From: a virus
Direction: 5' to 3' (one strand)
Length of the DNA: 33,626 nt
Virus record (IMG/VR): IMGVR_UViG_3300032322_001267
Span: 1-33,626 of that record
The notes under the pieces are model-generated. The model was not told the origin of the DNA, made no database searches, and saw nothing but the letters and a program-made list of their open reading frames with translations. Positions within the stretch are counted from its first letter, which is position 1; the number at the start of each line of letters is the position of its first letter. Both the position numbers and the translations under genes were made by a program. Of this stretch, positions 8,317 to 31,111 are shown in pieces.

Positions 8317-9429
8317 TTACCACCCGGTCGCCGGGAAGCGCCCGGCACGCAGCGGCTCTTGCACCGTGCGAAAGATGTCCGCGTAGGTTTGTCCCACCGT
8401 CTCCAGCCGATACCGCTGCCGCGCCAAGCTGCGCACCGTGCCGCGGTCCAGATGTCCCACCTCGTCCAGCGCCCGCGTGAAATCCGCTAGGGTGTTGCAC
8501 CGGATGCCGGTCTGCCCGTGCAGCACCGTCTCGGCGAACGCCCCGAAGTCCGACGTGATGGCGGGCGTGCCGCACAGCGCCGCCTCCACCACGGCCCCGC
8601 AGAACGGCTCCGCGTAGCGGCTCGGGGCCACGATGGCCGTGGCGTTGCCCAAGAACTCGGCCCGCTCCGTGGTCAGGGGTCCGACAAATTCGACGTTCGC
8701 GGGCGCCTCGCCGAAAGCGTCCGGGTCACCCTGTCCCGCCAGGCGGAACCGCAGGTCCGGGCGGCGCCGCGCCAGCTCCAGCACCACGCCGACGCCCTTG
8801 CCCTCGGTCAGCCGCCCAAGGAAGGCGATGTAGTCGCCCTTCCCGCGCCCGCGGGGCCACTCGTCCACGTCATAGTAGTTAGGCGCCACGAACTCCAGCC
8901 GCGGCGAGTCGAGCTGCACGCCGTGCCGCCCCTCCTTGGCCATGACGCCATGCCGCACCGCGTAGCTCTCGTAGATGCGCCACGGCAGCAGGCAGTCGTA
9001 GTACCCGATCCCCGACTCAATCGCCCCGGCGCCAGCGGCCAGCACCGGCAGCCCGCGGATGGCCGCGGCGTGCGCGTGGCCGAACGGCAGCAGGATCAGG
9101 TCGCCTGGTTCTACCCGCTCCTTGAGCTCCTCGCGGGCATACAGGTTCCACTGACGGTAGACCGGCGAGCCGTCCACGGCGTCCGCCCCGTAGAAGCCGC
9201 GCCCGACTTCGTGGTAGGCGTGGCCCAGCAGCGCCTGGTGCTCGTCCTGCTCCATCAGCACCACGTCCTCGGTCGCCCCCGTCTCGCTGCCCGCGACCCC
9301 GTAGTGTATCACGCGGTAGCCGTGCGGGAACAGCATGGGGCCGAATCGGGCGCACTTGGTCGTAAACGCACAGTGCGAAAAGTCCCGGTGCGTCACGGTA
9401 TGCGGCACGGAAAGCAGGTGCAGTTGCAT
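8317..9429 (-). CDS. GT-B fold glycosyltransferase, GT4-like (370 aa)
   Basis: The C-terminal half carries the nucleotide-sugar binding half of a GT4-type enzyme: DYIAFLGRLTEGKGVGVVLE (about residues 197-216), FRLAGQGDP, NVEFVGPLTTERAEFLGNAT, AIVAPSRYAEPFCGAVVEAALCGTPAIT with the E-x(7)-E-like segment, then GQTGIRCNTLADFTRAL. These enzymes move a sugar from an activated donor to an acceptor in the cytoplasm. ATG 9429 begins 2 bp after the stop of the large tail protein; TTG 9435 is an alternative. Position between tail and lysis genes suggests modification of virion proteins or of host surface glycans; the acceptor is unknown. Confidence 0.85.
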   Translation of the reverse strand: MQLHLLSVPHTVTHRDFSHCAFTTKCARFGPMLFPHGYRVIHYGVAGSETGATEDVVLMEQDEHQALLGHAYHEVGRGFYGADAVDGSPVYRQWNLYAREELKERVEPGDLILLPFGHAHAAAIRGLPVLAAGAGAIESGIGYYDCLLPWRIYESYAVRHGVMAKEGRHGVQLDSPRLEFVAPNYYDVDEWPRGRGKGDYIAFLGRLTEGKGVGVVLELARRRPDLRFRLAGQGDPDAFGEAPANVEFVGPLTTERAEFLGNATAIVAPSRYAEPFCGAVVEAALCGTPAITSDFGAFAETVLHGQTGIRCNTLADFTRALDEVGHLDRGTVRSLARQRYRLETVGQTYADIFRTVQEPLRAGRFPATGW

Positions 9430-9431
9430 CG

Positions 9432-12400
9432 TCAAGTCAGGAACGTACCGGCTCGAAAGCGCGACATCAGCACCGTGTCGCTGGAGCGCGCATAAACCGT
9501 CATCTGGTAGGTGGGGCTCACCCCGATAGAATAACCGCTGGTCACCGTCACCGGGCTCGTCTGGTTGGTCAGGAAGCCATCTTCCACCGTGCCGCCCGTG
9601 GTCACCGTGCGGTACTGGAGGTCGTATTGCGTGCCGCTTGGGAAGCCGCTGCCCGTCCAGCTAAACTCGTACTCGTTGGTCACATCGTCCGCGTTCTGGG
9701 TACCGATGGTAATGCTGGCCGACGTGGCGTCCTTGGCGGGGACGTTGACCGACTCGCCGATAGTGATGCTGTCCTTCGTCGCCTTGAACGAGGCCACCTT
9801 GGCCGCGCCGCTGAAGTCGTTGCGGGTGATGGTCTCGGTCCGCGGCGAGGTCCAGCCGCTTACCGATTGCGTTGCGCCATCCAGGGCGTATTCAATGGTG
9901 CCGGTCCACGTAATCGCCAGCGAATAGCTGGAGCTGCCCGGCGTGGTCACGATGTTGAGACTCGGCCCCACCCGCTCAATCGCGGGCACGTCCACCGAGT
10001 CGCTGACCGCGGCCCGGTCGGTTGCCGTCACAAGGAAGGTGATGCGCCCCGTGTTGCCGCCGATGGCGGGCCTGTCCACCGTCACATCGACGTAGCTGCC
10101 CACGGGCTCGGTGACCGTGGTGTTGGTCTCCGGGGTCACCGTCGCCGGGCTCAAGGGGATGGTCGCCGCCAGCGCGTCGGTGACCCACGAGACCGTCGCC
10201 GTATTGGGCGACAGCGCCACCGGACTGGCGACCGCCATGCGGATCGTGAGCTGCGTGCCGCTGTTGGCGACCACGCGCGCCCGCCCGATCAGGGATTGCG
10301 TGGTGGCCACCGGGGCGATGGCCACCGGGTCCGTGTCCGCCGCGTATCCGGTCGCCGTGGCCGTAAAGGTGATCATACCTGCCGGGGCGCCGACCGCAGG
10401 GCGGGGCACGTCGAAGTCGATGAAACTGAGCGCCGTTTCATTCGGGCTGGCAAAGTTGCCCGTCCCGGTGGTCACCGTGTTGCCGCTAGAGTCTGCGGGC
10501 AGGACGCCCGTGAGCCCCTGTGTGGTGTACCGGATGGTCGCCGTGGTGGCCGTGTACGGGTCCGGTACGTTCACCGCCACGCGCACCTTGGCGACCGTCG
10601 CCGTGCTGGTAGACAGCTCCCGCGCCCGCGAGATCACCGGCTTCGTATCGCGGCCCTGTTCCACGATGGTGAACGTGTCGTCGTCGGTCTCGTTCGTCAG
10701 CGTGGCCGACCGGCGCGCCTTGAACGTGGCAAAGCTGTCCCCGCTGAGCGGGGTACCGCGGTTCCAGACCCAGCTCGCTGGGGCACTCGTCCAGACCCCG
10801 ACCGCTGCGCCGCTCGACAGGCTGGCCGCGCCAGACGACGGGCCATTCAGGCCGACGAGCTGTACCTGCGCCCCCGAGATGGCGGCACCCGTGGGGTCTG
10901 TTGCGCTCACCGTGCTCGTGACCTGCGTCGGGCTGCTCGCCGACTGCACCGCCAGGCAGATGATGCCCGAGGCGCCCCGCTGGAACTGGTACTCGAAGAG
11001 CCCCGACTCCGTGCCGCCGCCGTTAATAGCGGTATACGCCAGGCACGAGACGTAGAAGATGGCCCCGATCTCGTAGGGGCCGCTGAAGGTGGCCGAATAG
11101 TTGCGGGCGTTGATCGGGGTCTGCCCCTGCGTGGTCGCGAGGTTGGGTTGGCTCGCCGTGCTGGTGGCAACCCGGATTGAAGCCGTGTCCGTATCGGCGC
11201 TGACGGCTAGTATGAAGTTGCCGTTGATCCCGAACGTCCCGACCACAGACGCCATGTCCGCCGCCGTGCCAGCGTCGAAGCTCTCAATCCCTCCCGCCAC
11301 CACGCGATCCACGCCGTCCACATCGTAGGCCGACACCTCGTATTCGATGTCAAGGAAGCCAGACGACGGCAGGATGTCGATAAGCTGGTACGGCGGCGTG
11401 GTGTCAATAACCCAAACGGACCACGCGCCGCCGTTTGTCCTGCTGCGGAACCGCACCTGCGTCAGCCGCCCTTGCGGGTCGGTGATTACCAGGGTAACGG
11501 TGCCATGAATCGCCGTTTCGGTGGTCTCGACTCGAACAATGACGCCCGTAGGCGCCGGGCGCAGCAGCTCGGCGGGCACACCCCGTGCGATTCCCGACAC
11601 TTCCCCGGTCGCCGCGCTGGTGACGAATCCGCCGAGCGCGTGCTTGGCGCGGTAGTAATAGGTGGTGCCATCACGCGGCAGCCGGTCCACATAAATGGCC
11701 GCAGAGCCGGGTACCCGGGCAATCTCGGCGAACCCGCTGCCGCTGGTCGTGCTGCGCTCAATCACAAAATCCAGCGTCTGGTCGGACGCATAGAGCCCGA
11801 GCGCGATACCCTGCTCCAGTGTGGCGTCATCCAGCAAGGGCACAAACGCAATGCCCGCCGGGCGCGTGGCCGTGCTGCCCGTCCCGCTGGTCGTCACGCT
11901 GGCGGTCGCCACCGGGCCACGCCCGGTCGGCGTGCTATAGGCGATGGCGAGCTGGTACGTGCCCGCCTCCAGCGTCCGGATCACGGTCGACGTGGAGCCG
12001 GGCGGCAGCGTGGTGACCAGGTACGGCTCCCATTGCGCCGGGGCCGAGCCGCCAAGGTAGGCAAACACGAACAGCGGGTAGGCGGTGCTGGTGTTCGTCC
12101 ACGAGATCGCCACGCTGGTGGCGGTCGTGGTGCCCACCGAGATGGCGCCCGGGGTTGGAATCGCCGTCAGGGTGACGCTGGCCCACGCCGTCCAGGCGGA
12201 TGGGCGCCGCCCCGTCTGCGTGGTCCGGGCGCGGGCATAGACCGTCACCCCCGAGCCGACCACAGCGGGAAGGTCCACCGCCCCGGTCGGCACCGTTCCG
12301 GGCGCGTAGGTGGCGAAGGCCGCGCCGTTCGTGGTCGGCGTGCTGGAGCCCGTGGCCCACTCCACTTCGACCGACAGCACCCCGCCGCTATTGATGGTCG

Positions 12401-14694: not shown

Positions 14695-16662
14695 CTAGAC
14701 GATGGTGGTCCCGCCGCGCCGCTGGGCGTTGCGCAGCAGCTCCTGCATCTGCCGCTGGGCGCTCGGGTCGTTGGGGCCGATGATGGTGACGTTCATGGGC
14801 TGCATGGGCGAGAGCCCGCCCGCCGCGGCGGCAGCCATGGTCGGGCCGAAGGTCAGCCCCGGCAGCGTGATGCCGCCCTGCCCGCCCGCGGTGTAGCCGA
14901 ACCCGCCCGAAGAGACCGGCGCGCCAGCACCCGTGGTGGTCATGCGGGACGCCACCCCCTTGAGCGCACCACCCAGCGCGATCACGGCCAACGATGCCGC
15001 GATGCCGGTGGGAGTGAACAGGGTCTGCAACATCGTGTTCACCGCGATGGCCGCGGCCAGCGCCTTGGTCCCGACCTGAATAAGCATATCCCCGAGCCCG
15101 GACAGCACCGTCTGGCCCAGCGCCTTGAACGCGTCCCCGATGTTGCCGCCCTTGGCGGTCAACGCCTGGAAGGCATTGGCCACGCCCGCGCTCAGAATCT
15201 GGCCGAGCTGGTTGCCCATCTCGCGGGCGGGCTCCAGCACGTTGCGCTCGTAGGCGGCGATCATCTCATCTCGCCGAGCGTCAAGCCCTGCGATCATCGA
15301 CGACATCAGCGGGTCCGGTGCCGCCGCGATGGATAACCCGATCTTCTTCTGTGCCGCCTGTATTTCCGCAAATGCCGCAGCCACGAGCGCGTTCAGCGGG
15401 CTGGCCGCAGGGTCTGTTGCCGACGCTGCGGTCTTGCCGCCGGTCAGCTTCTTAGACTTGGCCAGCAGCTTTTCCAGCTCAAGGCTGTAGTTGCGCGTCT
15501 GCCCGGCACCCTGCTGCGCCGTCTGCGCCTGCTTCATTGTGGACGTTGCCATCGCGTCCATGCTTTTCTGTACTTGCCCGCTAATCAGCTTATAGGCGCC
15601 CAGCCCAGCGGCCATGGCCGCCACCGTGGCCAGCACCTTGGCAGGCCCACCCGCCGCGCCGAGCGCGATCTGGGCGAAGGCGATGCCGTCCGCCACCGTC
15701 TTGACGGTGCGGGCCAGCGACAGCAGGGCGGAAATCGTGCCCGCACTGCCGAGAATCGCCGTCGTGGCCGAGGCCGCGAACGCCGCCGCTTGATAGCCCG
15801 CCCACGCTCCCGCCGCCGCCGCGATCAGTCCGGCGATCTCGGGTAGGTTGCGGCGCAGGGTGTCCACCAGCCTCGCGAACATCCCCGTGATGTCGGCGCT
15901 CTTGTTGATCTCGCCCGCCAGCATGACGAAATCGTTTCGCAGCGTGGTGATCTGCTGCGACATCGTGGGCACGAACGCGGCGAACTGCTCCGACACGGTG
16001 GTGTTGGCCAGCATCGCCGTGGCGAACATCTCCGACGACAGCTTGCCTTCCAGCGCCAGTTTCCGCAGGCCCCCAGACGCCAGCCCCAGCGACTTCTCCA
16101 CCGCCTGAATCAGCGCCGGGGCGCCTTCCTGTATGCTGTTGAACTCCTCAGCCCGTACCGTGCCCGCCGCGAACGCCTGCGAAAGCTGCGTCAGCGCGCC
16201 CGCCGCGGCCTCGCTGCTGCTCCCGGATACGGCGATGGCCTTGCCGACGAACTCCGTCAGCCGCCCCACCTCGGCCTGCGACAGCCCAAGCGTCTCGGCG
16301 CTCCGGGCCGTCTTGGCATACAGGTTGGCCACCTCGTTGATCGGCTGCCGCGTGAGCTGCGCGATCTGGTACACCTCGGCCTGCGCCGCGGCCAGCCCTT
16401 CGGCGCCCGTGGACGCCAGCTTCAACTGGTTCGTCAGGTTCGTGTAGCTATCCAGCGCCACGCCAATCTGTTGCGCGCTGAAGGCCGCGCCCACCGTCGC
16501 CGCCAGCGTGCGGAACGAATCGCTCAACCCCTTGGCCGCGTTGTCCGTGCTTTGCAGCTTGCCCGACGCATTGCTGGCCGCCTTCCCCAAAGAGTCCAGC
16601 GCCGACTGCACCGCCTTGGCGCCGATCTCCTTGATCGCCACCGCCACGCTCATCACGTCCAT
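14695..16662 (-). CDS. Tail tape measure protein (655 aa)
   Basis: The protein sets tail length and is packed in the tail tube. It begins with the tape-measure domain (residues about 1-230): SVAVAIKEIGAKAVQSALDS, LASTGAEGLAAAQAEVYQIA, PINEVANLYAKTARSAETLG, GKAIAVSGSSSEAAAGALTQ, QLSQAFAAGTVRAEEFNSI. Hydrophobic segments follow (PEIAGLIAAAAGAWAGYQAA, about 275-300; AVNTMLQTLFTPTGIAASLA, about 540-560). At 655 residues and roughly 1.5 Å per residue the tail would be around 100 nm (rule-of-thumb inference). ATG 16662 follows GGGGAGGG. No lytic or peptidase domain is visible. Confidence 0.9.
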   Translation of the reverse strand: MDVMSVAVAIKEIGAKAVQSALDSLGKAASNASGKLQSTDNAAKGLSDSFRTLAATVGAAFSAQQIGVALDSYTNLTNQLKLASTGAEGLAAAQAEVYQIAQLTRQPINEVANLYAKTARSAETLGLSQAEVGRLTEFVGKAIAVSGSSSEAAAGALTQLSQAFAAGTVRAEEFNSIQEGAPALIQAVEKSLGLASGGLRKLALEGKLSSEMFATAMLANTTVSEQFAAFVPTMSQQITTLRNDFVMLAGEINKSADITGMFARLVDTLRRNLPEIAGLIAAAAGAWAGYQAAAFAASATTAILGSAGTISALLSLARTVKTVADGIAFAQIALGAAGGPAKVLATVAAMAAGLGAYKLISGQVQKSMDAMATSTMKQAQTAQQGAGQTRNYSLELEKLLAKSKKLTGGKTAASATDPAASPLNALVAAAFAEIQAAQKKIGLSIAAAPDPLMSSMIAGLDARRDEMIAAYERNVLEPAREMGNQLGQILSAGVANAFQALTAKGGNIGDAFKALGQTVLSGLGDMLIQVGTKALAAAIAVNTMLQTLFTPTGIAASLAVIALGGALKGVASRMTTTGAGAPVSSGGFGYTAGGQGGITLPGLTFGPTMAAAAAGGLSPMQPMNVTIIGPNDPSAQRQMQELLRNAQRRGGTTIV

Positions 16663-16665
16663 GCG

Positions 16666-17399
16666 TTAGCCCTCCCCGATCACGGCTAGCCGCTCGTGCT
16701 GCGCCACCAGCGCCAGCGCCCGCGCCTTCGCCTGGTCGATCATGGACGTCAGCCGCCCCGCCGCCTTCAGGTAGCGCAGCTCGGCCTGCTGGAGCTTGCC
16801 CGGCTCGTGAAATGCCACGGCGACGAGGCCCGCCAGGTCCGTTCGTTCCCCCATGCGCTCCACCGTCGCCTCCCGGTCCATCGCCATAATCTCGCCCCAC
16901 GTCCACAACGTCAGGGCGAACGAGTCCCGCGCCACCTCGGCCACCGGGCGGGCCGTCGCCCGCGCCACCTGCACCACCACCCGCGCCACGTACTGCGAGA
17001 CTGACCGCGGCACCGAGACCGTCGCCCCGGTGCCCACGGTCAGTTTCCCGCCGCTGGCTCCGCTCCGCTCCGCTCGTCCTGCCCGGCGTCCTGGCTCGCC
17101 AACTGCGCCTCCACCTCCGCCACCGCGCCCCGCGTGAGCTGCACCAGCGCGCCGAGCTGGTCCACCGTCAGCCGATCCACCTCCGCCGCGGTCAGCTCGG
17201 GGCACGAGGCTCGCACCACGTCCAGCAGGGCGCCCATCAGCGACACCCCGGTGGGGTCCGCCTCCTGCGCCACGGCCAGCTTGTGCGCCGCGGCGCCGGA
17301 AATGGGACGCACCGTCACCTCCCGCCCGAACAGCCGCACCCGCGGCAACCGGGCGTCCGACACCAGCGCGTCGAGGTCCACTACCTTGGCGGTCAGCAT
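16666..17399 (-). CDS. Tail assembly chaperone, -1 frameshift fusion (lambda gpGT-like, 244 aa)
   Basis: The downstream frame (17043 to 16666, 125 residues) has no convincing start of its own: the only nearby GTG lacks a good ribosome-binding site, and the ORF extends backward in a Gly/Arg-rich shadow of the upstream gene. It joins the 119-codon chaperone at the slippery heptamer GGGAAAC. The fusion reads ...EPAAGN-LTVGTGATVSVPR and continues through ARDSFALTLWTWGEIMAMDR to LALVAQHERLAVIGEG. Such long chaperones bind the tape measure and recruit tail-tube subunits. Expected to be made at a low ratio to the short form. The stop lies 3 bp before the tape-measure start. Confidence 0.85.
17001..17049 (-). 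promoter_or_regulatory. -1 ribosomal frameshift signal: GGGAAAC plus nested hairpin
   Basis: The heptamer G-GGA-AAC (17049-17043) is in the correct zero frame and is followed immediately by the TGA stop of the short chaperone (17042-17040). Eight nt after it a perfect 7-bp stem GGCACCG/CGGTGCC (17034-17028 with 17015-17009, 12-nt loop) forms. It is enclosed by a second perfect 7-bp stem CTGACCG/CGGTCAG (17043-17037 with 17007-17001). Heptamer, spacer and stem match known tail-chaperone frameshift sites; lambda uses GGGAAAG at the same gene position. Confidence 0.9.
17040..17399 (-). CDS. Tail assembly chaperone, short form (lambda gpG-like, 119 aa)
   Basis: ATG 17399 shares a base with the tail-tube stop (TGATG). 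The protein starts MLTAKVVDLDALV, contains LPRVRLFGREVTVRPISGAA and helices EADPTGVSLMGALLDVVRAS and EVDRLTVDQLGALVQLTRGA, and ends in an Ala/Glu/Gln tail (EVEAQLASQDAGQDERS). Location between tail tube and tape measure, size and the frameshift site at its end identify it as the short tail chaperone. It would be the main product, with the fusion as the minor product. Confidence 0.85.
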   Translation of the reverse strand: MLTAKVVDLDALVSDARLPRVRLFGREVTVRPISGAAAHKLAVAQEADPTGVSLMGALLDVVRASCPELTAAEVDRLTVDQLGALVQLTRGAVAEVEAQLASQDAGQDERSGAEPAAGN

Positions 17400-17962
17400 C
17401 AGACGGCGGCGAGGTACTCGATCCGGTACGGCATGTCGCCGACGTTGGCGCCCGAAACGGTCATGTCCAGCCGCGCCTCGATCTCGATGGCGATGGCGAT
17501 CTCGGCGGCGTCCTGCGAGGTCATGTCGTACTTGGTCAGCAGCGCCGCCGGAAACCGCACCTGCACGAACGCCCCCGAGCCGCGCAGCCAGATGGCCCGC
17601 ACGTCGGTCAGGTAGTCGCCCGAGGCTAGCAGCGAGCCCGCCCGCTTGCCCTGGTAGCTGGTCGAGCCGGTCCACGCGCCCGACGCCACCACGGTGGCCC
17701 CCGGCTCGATCTGGCCCACGTTCGTGGTGCTGAGCTGGATCATGGTCCCGGTCAGCTTGGGCATGGTCGCCGCCTTGCGGTCCAGCCCGCGCACGGGCGA
17801 GCGGCGCCCGTCGAACTCGATGGCCCGGTACTCGGTGCCGGGGTCGAACTTGAGCCCGCCGGTCATCGCGCCCAGCACGCTGGAGCCGATGTACAGGACG
17901 CCCGAGTCCAGCAGGACGTCGGTCGGGAGCGAGCTGGTGTAGCCAGTCAGTGGGGCAGTCAC
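17399..17962 (-). CDS. Major tail tube protein (187 aa)
   Basis: GTG 17962 follows GAGGTGA, a strong ribosome-binding site, after one of the few intergenic gaps of the operon, as expected for an abundant protein. The sequence is beta-rich with TGYTSSLPTDVLLDSGVLYI, GGLKFDPGTEYRAIEFDGRR, AATMPKLTGTMIQLSTTNVG and RFPAALLTKYDMTSQDAAEI followed by IAIEIEARLDM. This pattern matches phage tail tube subunits, which stack in rings to make the tail. Context agrees: tail terminator upstream, chaperones downstream. Confidence 0.8.
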   Translation of the reverse strand: MTAPLTGYTSSLPTDVLLDSGVLYIGSSVLGAMTGGLKFDPGTEYRAIEFDGRRSPVRGLDRKAATMPKLTGTMIQLSTTNVGQIEPGATVVASGAWTGSTSYQGKRAGSLLASGDYLTDVRAIWLRGSGAFVQVRFPAALLTKYDMTSQDAAEIAIAIEIEARLDMTVSGANVGDMPYRIEYLAAV

Positions 17963-27382: not shown

Positions 27383-28171
27383 CTATACGGAATAGGTCTG
27401 CCGCACGGCTGCGAGCCGGTCGGCCATCGTGACCGCGGCATCCTCGCGGGCTGGCGGCGGCGTGGGCGGGGCGCAGCAATCCGTGCGCGTGCCCGGGGCC
27501 ACATCGTCCAGGTACGGGGAAGCGTAGGCATCCAGCACCGCCTGCCGGTCGGTGACGCTCAGGGCGTCGAGCGCCGTGCGGGCGGCAATCATGAGCAGGT
27601 CGCGGTCCGTGCGCACGGAGTCGCGGGGCTGCTCGGGAACATCGGTGGTGCTCTTGTCGCTGCGCGCCCCCAGCACGTCGGTGCCGGGGACGCTGGGCAT
27701 CGGGGTCAGGCTGACCTCGCGCAGCTCGATTTCGAGGAACCGATCGACGGTCTTGCCGTCCACCACGGCCATCTCGGTGCGCTTGGGGACGAACCCGATC
27801 GACAGCCCGGTGACGGCGCCCGCGGCCATGACGGCCTTCACGTAGTCCCGCGCTGCGCGCCCCGCCTCGGTGTCGAACAGGTCGGCCACCATGACCAGCC
27901 CGTCGCCCGTGTCGGTCAGGCTGGCGACCACGCCGACGTGGGCGTCCACCTCGCGCTCGTGGTCCATCAGGAAGGGGACGCGCCGCGCCTTGACCTTGGT
28001 GTCAATGGTCCGCTTGGCGCAGCCCCGGGCGAAGACGGTCCCGTAGGTGTCCACCTGCTCGTAGGTCAGGGCCACGCCGGTAATGCGCCCCGCGATCCCC
28101 TCGGGCAGTCCTTCCTGGCGGGCTTCGAGCGCCACCTCGCGGCGGTACAGCGTCACGGTGTCGATGGTCAT
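27383..28171 (-). CDS. Prohead maturation protease, HK97 family (262 aa)
   Basis: The enzyme cleaves the capsid delta domain during maturation. The family motifs are present: GRITGVALTYEQVDTYGTVF at the start, FLMDHEREVDAHVGVV with catalytic His71, then FDTEAGRAARDYVKAVMAAG, VTGLSIGFVPKR with catalytic Ser124 and EIELREVSLTPMPSVPGTDV. The residues after about 165 form a flexible C-terminal tail, including a paired Cys (TRTDCCAPPTPPPAREDA). ATG 28171 overlaps the portal stop (ATGA); a longer in-frame start is rejected. Neighbours portal and capsid confirm the role. Confidence 0.9.
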   Translation of the reverse strand: MTIDTVTLYRREVALEARQEGLPEGIAGRITGVALTYEQVDTYGTVFARGCAKRTIDTKVKARRVPFLMDHEREVDAHVGVVASLTDTGDGLVMVADLFDTEAGRAARDYVKAVMAAGAVTGLSIGFVPKRTEMAVVDGKTVDRFLEIELREVSLTPMPSVPGTDVLGARSDKSTTDVPEQPRDSVRTDRDLLMIAARTALDALSVTDRQAVLDAYASPYLDDVAPGTRTDCCAPPTPPPAREDAAVTMADRLAAVRQTYSV

Positions 28172-31062
28172 AGGACGCCCTGCGCCTCCTCGGGGGTCTC
28201 GGTGTAGTAGACTAGGGTGCAGCGGCAGTTGATGACCTCGCCAGCGGGGCCGCGTGGGTCCAGCGGGTACAGCAGGCCGTTGCCGAACGGGTCGTCGATG
28301 CCGATGGGCGGCTGGGCGCCCGCGGCGGCGTGCGTCGGGCGGGTCTTGCGGTCCTCGAAGGCCAACCATTGCTTGGCCCGGAACAGGTCGCCTTCGGCCT
28401 TCGCTTGGTCCCACGAGCCCTGCGACTGCGCGCCCGCCACCTCGGTCTTGGCGATCCGCGTGGCCCGCACGTCGGTCATCTGCTCGCCGTACACGCTGGC
28501 CTGAATCAGCCGCGCCGTCTCGGCCACGCTCAGCTCGGCCAGCTCGGCGCTGCGGATCGCCGCAGTGACCTGCTTCGCGGTCGTCTCCCCGATCAGCTCG
28601 GCCAGCCGGTCGGCCCGGTTGGCGATGGCCTGTAGCACGCTGGGCGGCTTGAGCCCGAAGCTATAGCCTGCGCCCATGACCTCCTGCGCGCCGAAGAGGT
28701 ACATGCGCTCGATCAGCTCCAGATACGCGGCCCGCCACGCGGCGTAGTATTCCCCGCCCCGGGCGTAGTTTTCCCGGATCTGCCGCTCGATGGCGTCCAG
28801 CACGGGGTCGTCCGCTCGGGTCGCCCGGTCAAACAGCCGCGCCACGGACGCCGCGTCCTCGCGGAACCGGGCGCGGGCGGTCGTATAGAATGGCGCCTCC
28901 TGCCGGTCCATCTCCTCCATCTGCCGCACCCAATAGCGGTACAGGATGTGGTCCTCGTCGGGCTCGCCGTCCTCGCGGTAGAGCGGGGCGCGCAGCACCT
29001 CGGGATGGTGGACCCACCACGGGCGCCCCTGCTCGTCTACCAGGGGGCTGGCATTCCGTACCGGCGCACCAGCGGGAGCCGGTGCCGCATCGTCCGCTGC
29101 CACCGCCGCCACGGCGACACGCGCCGATAGGGCGGCACCACCTGCCGGAACACGTTGCGCCGCACGGTCAAGCGCCTCCTTGGCTTCGTTGATGACGGCC
29201 CGCATCCCATCCAGCCCGATGTCGCCCACCACGAGCCACTTCACCTGGGCGATCACGCCCGCAATCCGCTTGTTCCCCCGGTGCCTCGCCCCCCACGCCT
29301 CGCGCAGCCGCACGGCCCGCTCCTCGGCGGGGCTGTTGGGCGCGCCGCCACGCTTGGCCAGCGGGGCCAAGATGGCGAACTGCCGGTTGCCGCGGACGTT
29401 GCCGCCCTTGCGCCAGATTTCGGGGTACTCGCGCTTCAGGGTCTCGGCCTCGCCCACGGGGAAGCGCCCCCACTGGCTGTTGCGCAGGCTGACGGCCTTG
29501 TCGTCCCCCTTGGCGGGGAAGTCCGTCGCCGGGTCGGCGCGATCCTCCTCCTCGTCGTCCAGCTCGTCGTCGTCCTCGTCGTCCTCGTCCTCCAGCTCCT
29601 CCTCGTCCGTCTCGCCCTGCAACGCCGGGGGCGGGCCGTCCTGCGCGGGGGCCTGCTCCATGACCGCCCGCGGGTCGATCACGGCCACCGCGGCGGGGGT
29701 CAGCGTGGCCCCGGCGGTGACCAGAATCGTGTCGGTGGGCTCAGGGATCGGGGACAGCCGCAGCGCCCGCCGCGACTCCTCCCACGTCCGGAGTCCGTCG
29801 CGGAACTCGGCCCGCACGCGGGTGCTCGTGGCGCTGTCGTCCTCGACCAGCTCGCGCAGCAGATCATGGTCGTAGGTGATCCACACGTCCCCGAACTCGG
29901 GGGCCAGCCAGTGGTTCAGCTCGTCCTCGATCGCGGCCAGCATGGGCTCGATGGTGTGCTGCACCAGCCGTGCCCGCGCCTCGACATACTGCGCGCCCGA
30001 CAGCCCGGCGTCGGACGTGGCGCTCGCGATCCCGATCATCCGCGGGTCCACCCCGAAGGCGGCGCAGATGTCCTCGCGGGACACCCGGCGCAAGTCGGGG
30101 AACTCCAGGTCGGACAGCGTGAACCCCAACGGCTTGATGTCGCGCACGGCCCCGAAGAACGCAGGCGTGCCCCGCTTGCCGCGGTCGACCACGCGGGCCT
30201 TGTAGCGGTCCTGCATGGCGGTGGCGTCATCCTGCGTGGCCTCGTCGGCCAGCAGCACGGCGAACGTGGGGGTGCCGTCGTTGGTCACCACCTGGCGCAC
30301 GTACTTGGTGGCCTCGTTGTCTGCCGCGATGGACGCCAGCGCCGTGGCGCCCCGGGGGAACCCGAAGGCGTCGGGCGTGAAGGGGCGCGGCATCTCCAGG
30401 TCGCGGACGTGGATGATGTCCGCCACGTCCCGCTGCACGATGATCCCCGACCAGTTGGCGTAGTCGTACCGCCGCGGGTCGCCGTCCGCGTCCACCCACA
30501 CCGACTGAAGCGACTCGGGGTTGATCGCCCCCAGCCGCCGCGGCAGGCCGACGCCGGACGGGCCGCGGTCCATCTCCAGCATGGCGTTGCCGTAGCCCAG
30601 AAAATCAATCGCCAGCCGCGCGCGCATGGTGCGGGCGGTGAACCGGGGGCCGGGGTAGTCCAGCAGCCGCTGGAGCGGGTGCGACTCGGGCACGCGGCTC
30701 TCGTAGTCGCCCCGGGCGCGCAGCACGACGAGCGGCACCGACGCCACCACGTCGGCGATCACGCGCATACACGCATGGACGACCGGGTGCTTGCTGAACC
30801 CTTCGGCCCGGATGCTGGCGCCTTCCGGCTTGTACTCCTGCGGATTGGCCGTGCGCACCAGCGACATCTGGGGCGTCCCGCTGGCCAGCCCGTTGGGCGG
30901 CTGCCCGCTGCTTCCGGCGATGGCCGGGAAGTTGGGGTACACCAGCGGGATCACGGCGCGGCTTGCGTCGGGCGCGGTGATGTCCCCGCGCAGCGCCTTC
31001 AGGGCGAGCCCCACGCGCTCGCGCAGGGTCGGGACGGCCACAGGGGCCGGGGCGTCAGCCAT
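28168..31062 (-). CDS. Portal protein fused to MuF-type head morphogenesis domain (964 aa)
   Basis: Residues about 60-460 are an HK97-type portal (SKHPVVHACMRVIADVVASV, PLQRLLDYPGPRFTARTMRA, DIIHVRDLEM, GLSGAQYVEARARLVQHTIE). The portal is the dodecameric DNA gate of the capsid. An acidic Asp/Glu run (about 485-507) leads to KAVSLRNSQWGRFPVGEAET and a ~110-residue helical domain (NVRGNRQFAILAPLAKRGG, then AGVIAQVKWLVVG, about 515-635). The C-terminus (about 866-954) is a Mu gpF-like domain: ATRIAKTEVAGAQSQGSWDQ, WLAFEDRKTRPTHAAA and GEVINCRC. Usual portals have about 400-550 residues, so this is a fusion. Start ATG 31062 is preferred; GTG 31080 is possible, and neither has a strong SD. Confidence 0.88.
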   Translation of the reverse strand: MADAPAPVAVPTLRERVGLALKALRGDITAPDASRAVIPLVYPNFPAIAGSSGQPPNGLASGTPQMSLVRTANPQEYKPEGASIRAEGFSKHPVVHACMRVIADVVASVPLVVLRARGDYESRVPESHPLQRLLDYPGPRFTARTMRARLAIDFLGYGNAMLEMDRGPSGVGLPRRLGAINPESLQSVWVDADGDPRRYDYANWSGIIVQRDVADIIHVRDLEMPRPFTPDAFGFPRGATALASIAADNEATKYVRQVVTNDGTPTFAVLLADEATQDDATAMQDRYKARVVDRGKRGTPAFFGAVRDIKPLGFTLSDLEFPDLRRVSREDICAAFGVDPRMIGIASATSDAGLSGAQYVEARARLVQHTIEPMLAAIEDELNHWLAPEFGDVWITYDHDLLRELVEDDSATSTRVRAEFRDGLRTWEESRRALRLSPIPEPTDTILVTAGATLTPAAVAVIDPRAVMEQAPAQDGPPPALQGETDEEELEDEDDEDDDELDDEEEDRADPATDFPAKGDDKAVSLRNSQWGRFPVGEAETLKREYPEIWRKGGNVRGNRQFAILAPLAKRGGAPNSPAEERAVRLREAWGARHRGNKRIAGVIAQVKWLVVGDIGLDGMRAVINEAKEALDRAAQRVPAGGAALSARVAVAAVAADDAAPAPAGAPVRNASPLVDEQGRPWWVHHPEVLRAPLYREDGEPDEDHILYRYWVRQMEEMDRQEAPFYTTARARFREDAASVARLFDRATRADDPVLDAIERQIRENYARGGEYYAAWRAAYLELIERMYLFGAQEVMGAGYSFGLKPPSVLQAIANRADRLAELIGETTAKQVTAAIRSAELAELSVAETARLIQASVYGEQMTDVRATRIAKTEVAGAQSQGSWDQAKAEGDLFRAKQWLAFEDRKTRPTHAAAGAQPPIGIDDPFGNGLLYPLDPRGPAGEVINCRCTLVYYTETPEEAQGVL

Positions 31063-31111
31063 GGTCCGAACGCTAGGCACAGCGTCTGCCGTGCGCCACC
31101 CGTGCAGTTGA

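Follow-up and report, generated by a model that had tools for sequence, protein, structure and literature searches.

It was found that a tail chaperone gene of an uncultured phage very probably undergoes programmed −1 frameshifting of the lambda G/GT type, as judged by comparing its sequence with related loci. The gene lies in the IMG/VR record IMGVR_UViG_3300032322_001267, whose 33,626 bases (G+C about 69%) are called the window below. The initial annotation, made from the letters of the window, had described the junction as a −1 frameshift cassette in tail chaperone genes. This description is strongly supported by the heptamers of 57/57 related loci, the frames, the hairpin arms, and the gene order, but the accompanying idea that an outer stem tunes the frameshift is not.

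Layout of the chaperone locus

The minus strand of the window holds the identified head and tail genes, encoding terminase, portal, protease, capsid, head-tail connector, major tail protein, chaperone, and tape measure. Both overlapping frames of the chaperone sit between the major tail protein and tape measure genes, and the start codon of the chaperone overlaps with the stop codon of the major tail gene (TGATG). In the −1 frame, GGG AAA is followed by 125 codons (17043-16669), and 3 bp separate the final TAA from the tape measure ATG at 16662, just as the initial annotation had it. The 119-residue part and the 125 codons make a fusion of 244 amino acids. Every position given in the initial annotation was confirmed.

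Table 1. Features of the chaperone junction and its neighbours in the window
Feature	Position	Strand	Remarks
Major tail protein	17399..17962	−	phrog_885, E 6.7e-15; 5′ of the junction in 47/47 relatives whose sequence extends far enough
Short tail assembly chaperone (G-like), 119 aa, predicted	17040..17399	−	ATG 17399, stop TGA 17042-17040
GGAG, Shine-Dalgarno-like, possible 5′ stimulator	17058..17061	−	ends 8 nt 5′ of the heptamer
Slippery heptamer G_GGA_AAC	17043..17049	−	final two sense codons of the short chaperone
Zero-frame stop TGA	17040..17042	−	adjoins the heptamer
Inner hairpin, probable frameshift stimulator	17009..17034	−	arms 17034-17028 / 17015-17009; lengthened in the minimum-energy fold
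Outer helix, lineage-specific extension of the same stem	17001..17043	−	arms 17043-17037 / 17007-17001
−1-frame extension (T-like domain, putative)	16666..17043	−	125 codons CTG..GGC + stop TAA 16668-16666
Tape measure protein	14695..16662	−	PF20155, E 5.6e-53; 3′ of the junction in 48/51 relatives whose sequence extends far enough

The short protein is a predicted tail assembly chaperone, and the strongest support for this identity is the gene order of major tail protein, chaperone, and tape measure, which is kept among the relatives. All of the 12 representatives of the short chaperone matched phrog_893, a family without a name. The AlphaFold model of the short chaperone (pLDDT 82) had the HK97 tail assembly chaperone 2OB9 as its top PDB match, a weak one (E 0.49), and its top BFVD matches include several named viral tail assembly chaperones, again weak (best E 0.01). 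A sequence search of the PDB gave no match for the short chaperone and only chance-level matches for the second-frame protein. A T-like function of the latter is suggested by its position, since family profile searches matched it to no known family and its AlphaFold model was poor (pLDDT 60).

Neither chaperone part matched a named phage isolate by tblastn, the genome_contigs search found no relative, and the Rfam search gave no match of note. Most isolates with a match to the tape measure infect bacteria. AXL_3 and JG054 were set aside as comparators; they share the tape-measure domain, but different proteins (a phrog_3817 chaperonin, Neck1-like) precede their tape measure.

Some other features of the window are recorded here. 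In a 970-aa protein (28171-31080, minus strand), a single chain combines a portal domain (PF04860) with a Mu F-like minor head domain (PF04233) at its C-terminal end. A 1,608-aa ORF without a family match follows the tape measure region, and directly after it comes a gene matching Glycosyltransferase, group 1 family (8320-9435, minus strand, E 7.9e-18). The second-frame and major tail proteins of the relative L045 (contig 3300033979_000277) are about 98-99% identical to those of the window, but the tape measure proteins share only about 60% identity in the best segment, versus 93% for L046. This suggests that the tape measure gene changes rapidly or is exchanged among near-identical phages.

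Heptamer, stop codon, and inner hairpin

Related loci were collected from viral contigs with the second-frame protein as a query, yielding 36 and then 65 loci, of which 57 were examined. An in-phase heptamer lies at the same junction, where the conserved second frame begins, in 57/57 of these loci; the relatives are not independent, and many contigs are near-duplicates. In the window, GGGAAAC is in the right frame directly 5′ of the short-chaperone stop on the minus strand, as first annotated, and its zero-frame phase (G GGA AAC TGA) is the canonical X_XXY_YYZ. Most relatives have AAAAAAC, and the remainder have GGGAAAC, GGGAAAA, or GGGAAAG. Of the 6,738 other in-phase positions of both frames, counted over 30 distinct representatives, a single one has an XXX(AAA/TTT)N. 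On a tree built from both proteins with the junction left out, there were at least three switches between GGG and AAA and at least five heptamer switches. The letters of the heptamer vary, and the slip rule is retained.

Protein conservation follows the zero frame up to the heptamer and the −1 frame from the heptamer on, which shows constraint on both frames; the −1-frame protein is conserved in 13 representatives (A1). In L090, L098, L101, and L104, a −1-frame stop codon ends exactly at the start of the heptamer and a zero-frame stop codon follows the heptamer. Thus, the heptamer is the sole connection between the frames. In L057 and L088, the −1 frame has no start codon from its last stop codon to 60 nt past the heptamer. 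Independent initiation therefore cannot supply the full second frame in these six relatives. It is in the relatives that the second frame is seen to be start-less; the window alone does not decide this.

It was revealed that the stop codon immediately follows the heptamer in 51/57 loci and in 27/30 distinct relatives. Neither this abutting stop, as a feature, nor the GGAG described below had been pointed out in the initial annotation. On the tree, the triplet after the heptamer changes its identity about 13 times. Most of these changes exchange one stop codon (TGA, TAA, TAG) for another, so that CTG or CTA is usually the first codon read in the −1 frame. The leucine codon CTA accounts for 13/25 at this site versus 34/686 elsewhere. 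In three lineages (L054-L056, L057, and L106-L107), the stop codon comes one to eight codons later, the heptamer is kept, and the hairpin is present in most. Across the related loci, the comparison shows that the stop adjoining the heptamer is maintained.

The perfect 7-bp stem reported eight nucleotides past the heptamer was found as described on the minus strand (GGCACCG/CGGTGCC). In the relatives, the 5′ arm starts at p5-p9 (4-8 nt past the heptamer), most often at p8 (7 nt), with a single exception among 26 distinct sequences. The stem here, 7-8 nt downstream, fits the published stem-loop spacing of 5-9 nt (PMC8211752). The arms diverge widely, as seen in GGCACCG/CGGTGCC, GGCACGGC/GCCGTGCC, GGCGACGG/CCGTCGCC, CGCAACGGA/TCCGTTGCG, and ACGCGACC/GGTCGCGT. 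Nevertheless, they match within each relative: in an arm-swap test, own arms scored 24.7 versus 17.7 ± 0.8 for swapped arms, and 0/5,000 permutations were as high, a figure that is somewhat optimistic because the sequences are related. Compared with synonymous recoding under local codon usage, the junction had a mean z of −1.95 in 30 representatives, versus −0.81 to +0.11 at 13 control positions in the same genes. Measured against the protein, the register of the hairpin differs from clade to clade, so that its conservation lies in position and strength more than in homologous pairs. Pair counting among six ungapped near relatives is not informative alone, because these relatives are too similar and the inner-stem register shifts; this is why the arm-swap and synonymous-recoding tests were used. 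The only pair changed on both sides in those six belongs to the inner helix. The initial annotation had proposed a search for covariation in both stems; the arms of the inner stem match within each relative, and the outer stem has no compensatory change.

A GGAG sequence usually lies about 8 nt 5′ of the heptamer in the relatives. The family-average pairing with the anti-Shine-Dalgarno sequence is strongest at this GGAG across the whole region from −200 to +60, and its excess over synonymous recoding is modest (mean z −0.64, negative in 27/30). The resemblance of the GGAG to the −1-stimulating internal Shine-Dalgarno sequence of dnaX is only suggestive. In the clade of the window, the GGAG is part of short tandem GCGGA repeats (gagcggagcggagcggag, 17058-17074, minus strand), which are absent in most relatives.

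Alternative readings and the outer stem

Could the two frames be explained without ribosomal slippage? Translation of the second frame from an internal start codon is highly improbable. The −1 frame of the window stays open for 137 codons 5′ of the heptamer and contains GTG codons, which would allow such a start, but the relevant stretch is devoid of start codons in L057 and L088, the heptamer of L090, L098, L101, and L104 is immediately preceded by a stop codon, and the conservation of the heptamer would be left unexplained. Transcriptional slippage on an A run, generating mixed mRNAs, might be imagined for the many relatives carrying AAAAAAC. It is implausible because the window and its clade have GGGAAAC with only three As, and the heptamer class, the phase, and the hairpin distance fit ribosomal slippage. 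The reading given the least credence of all, in which the layout is due to chance or to a single disrupted gene with a sequencing error, is refuted by conservation, since the 57/57 loci come from many metagenomes and all share the two-frame layout. Programmed −1 frameshifting is the preferred reading. The stop codon may itself belong to the signal: slow termination, or competition with the release factor, would let the P-site Asn-tRNA slip, and the protein ratio would respond to the level of release factor. A later stop codon would equally end the short protein, yet the stop abuts the heptamer in 27 of the 30 distinct relatives and its changes go mostly from stop to stop; moreover, AAC is a poor codon for tandem slippage in E. 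coli. Against this, the three lineages with a later stop codon keep the heptamer, and the conservation of the full XXXYYYZ pattern argues for two-tRNA slippage, which precedes the entry of the stop codon into the A site. On balance, such a role for the stop is considered unlikely. A broader version, in which the stop at an AAC-ending heptamer works in the signal so that the host's capacity for termination (release factor) is sensed through the ratio of the chaperones, with further modulation by the enclosing stem in the clade of the window, is doubtful.

The initial annotation had also described a double nested hairpin, and suggested that its outer stem, whose start falls within the heptamer, could compete with the ribosome and tune the frameshift ratio. 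Both 7-bp stems exist at their described positions; the outer one (CTGACCG/CGGTCAG) begins with the last base of the heptamer. However, in the minimum-energy fold (−46.7 kcal/mol, z −6.2) they make up one long imperfect stem, with a bulge of 1 nt and a loop of 4 nt, instead of two hairpins, and the predicted stem even reaches past the heptamer (GCGGGA/TCTCGC). As a tuner, the outer stem would occlude the slippery site and the stop codon and thereby set the ratio of short and fused chaperones. In favour of this, its seven pairs are perfect in the window, none of 1,000 synonymous recodings folds as well as the whole window structure, the pairing is completed by a TCA serine codon that is otherwise unused in the two frames sampled, and the pairing extends upstream of the heptamer, whose probability of being paired is 0.70. 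However, all seven pairs of the outer helix formed in 57/1,000 (5.7%) synonymous recodings with the protein fixed. Positions p1-3 and the heptamer are predicted to be strongly paired only in the window and the three contigs nearest to it, L046, L047, and L048, and about half in L049; in most other relatives that keep the heptamer and the inner hairpin, the outer stem is absent or weakly predicted, and the heptamer is paired little or weakly. Outer pairs lose pairing in L048, L049, and L053, with an uncompensated mismatch in L048, and L047 has a U-G pair. In addition, a ribosome whose P and A sites are occupied by the heptamer should, by established geometry, cover most of the outer 5′ arm, and so should already have melted most of the outer stem. 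Because of the limited lineage distribution, the formation by chance, the lack of compensatory change, and the ribosome cover, the tuning idea is unsupported, and a functional tuner is improbable. Most probably, the outer helix reflects an incidental elongation of the stem that is specific to this lineage.

Probable mechanism and relation to known systems

Programmed frameshifting at this junction would proceed as follows. Most ribosomes would read GGA-AAC-TGA and terminate, producing the 119-aa chaperone. A minority would pause at the hairpin, whose base lies 7-8 nt downstream, and the abutting stop codon and an anti-Shine-Dalgarno contact of the GGAG, some 8 nt upstream, may perhaps add to the pause. 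The P- and A-site tRNAs would then slip from GGA/AAC to GGG/AAA and continue with CTG, generating the 244-aa fusion. Two-tRNA slippage would give the junction ...SGAEPAAGN-LTVGTGATV..., with SGAEPAAGNLTVGTGATVSVPR as a diagnostic peptide, and slippage in the P site only would give ...AAGK-LTVG..., with the peptides SGAEPAAGK and then LTVGTGATVSVPR. By analogy with lambda gpG/gpGT, the short form may coat the tape measure protein and the fusion may recruit the major tail protein.

The −1 frameshift of lambda G/GT and its conserved counterparts were reportedly described by Levin (1993) and by Xu, Hendrix and Duda (2004). The lambda heptamer ends with AAG, while the heptamer here ends with AAC. 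Like lambda G/GT, the locus has a short chaperone gene just 5′ of the tape measure gene, a −1 heptamer near the 3′ end of that gene, a start-less second frame, and a heptamer of the GGGAAAx class. Unlike in lambda, the stop codon abuts the heptamer and the hairpin is conserved at a fixed distance, and both chaperone parts have no detectable sequence similarity to named isolates. Lambda G/GT and its counterparts are reviewed in PMC5009743, where low-level −1 frameshifting in a chaperone gene 5′ of the tape measure gene is described as widespread in long-tailed phages; 2,397 annotated tail assembly chaperones were used for the PRFect tool (PMC10885494).

In E. coli, heptamers ending with AAG are the best and those ending with AAC are weaker (PMC4066793, PMC5009743). 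Thus, the shift frequency may be low in the host. A hairpin is not always present in bacterial −1 signals (PMC4066793). The E. coli dnaX signal is similar in having an A_AAA_AAx-type heptamer and a downstream stem-loop, and its upstream Shine-Dalgarno-like element has a possible counterpart in the GGAG, but its heptamer ends with AAG, its Shine-Dalgarno sequence lies 10 nt upstream (PMC5009743), and the gene function differs. Upstream stimulators of the dnaX type lie at 9-14 nt (PMC5009743), whereas the GGAG here ends 8 nt 5′ of the heptamer, with the modest z given above. The haloarchaeal viruses HCTV-1, HCTV-2, and HCTV-5 have G_GGA_AAC and A_AAA_AAC in the equivalent tail genes (PMC5009743), but their hosts are archaea and there is no sign of an archaeal host here.

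The frameshift mechanism is already known; what is new is the phage family and its clean hairpin and stop layout. With this locus, a family of uncultured phages is added to the cases of lambda-type frameshifting in tail chaperones, and the comparative evidence for its downstream hairpin is unusually clean. The near-universal layout of heptamer and stop codon, together with the AAC preference, makes this family a natural series on how a heptamer, a hairpin, and a stop codon set a fixed protein ratio.
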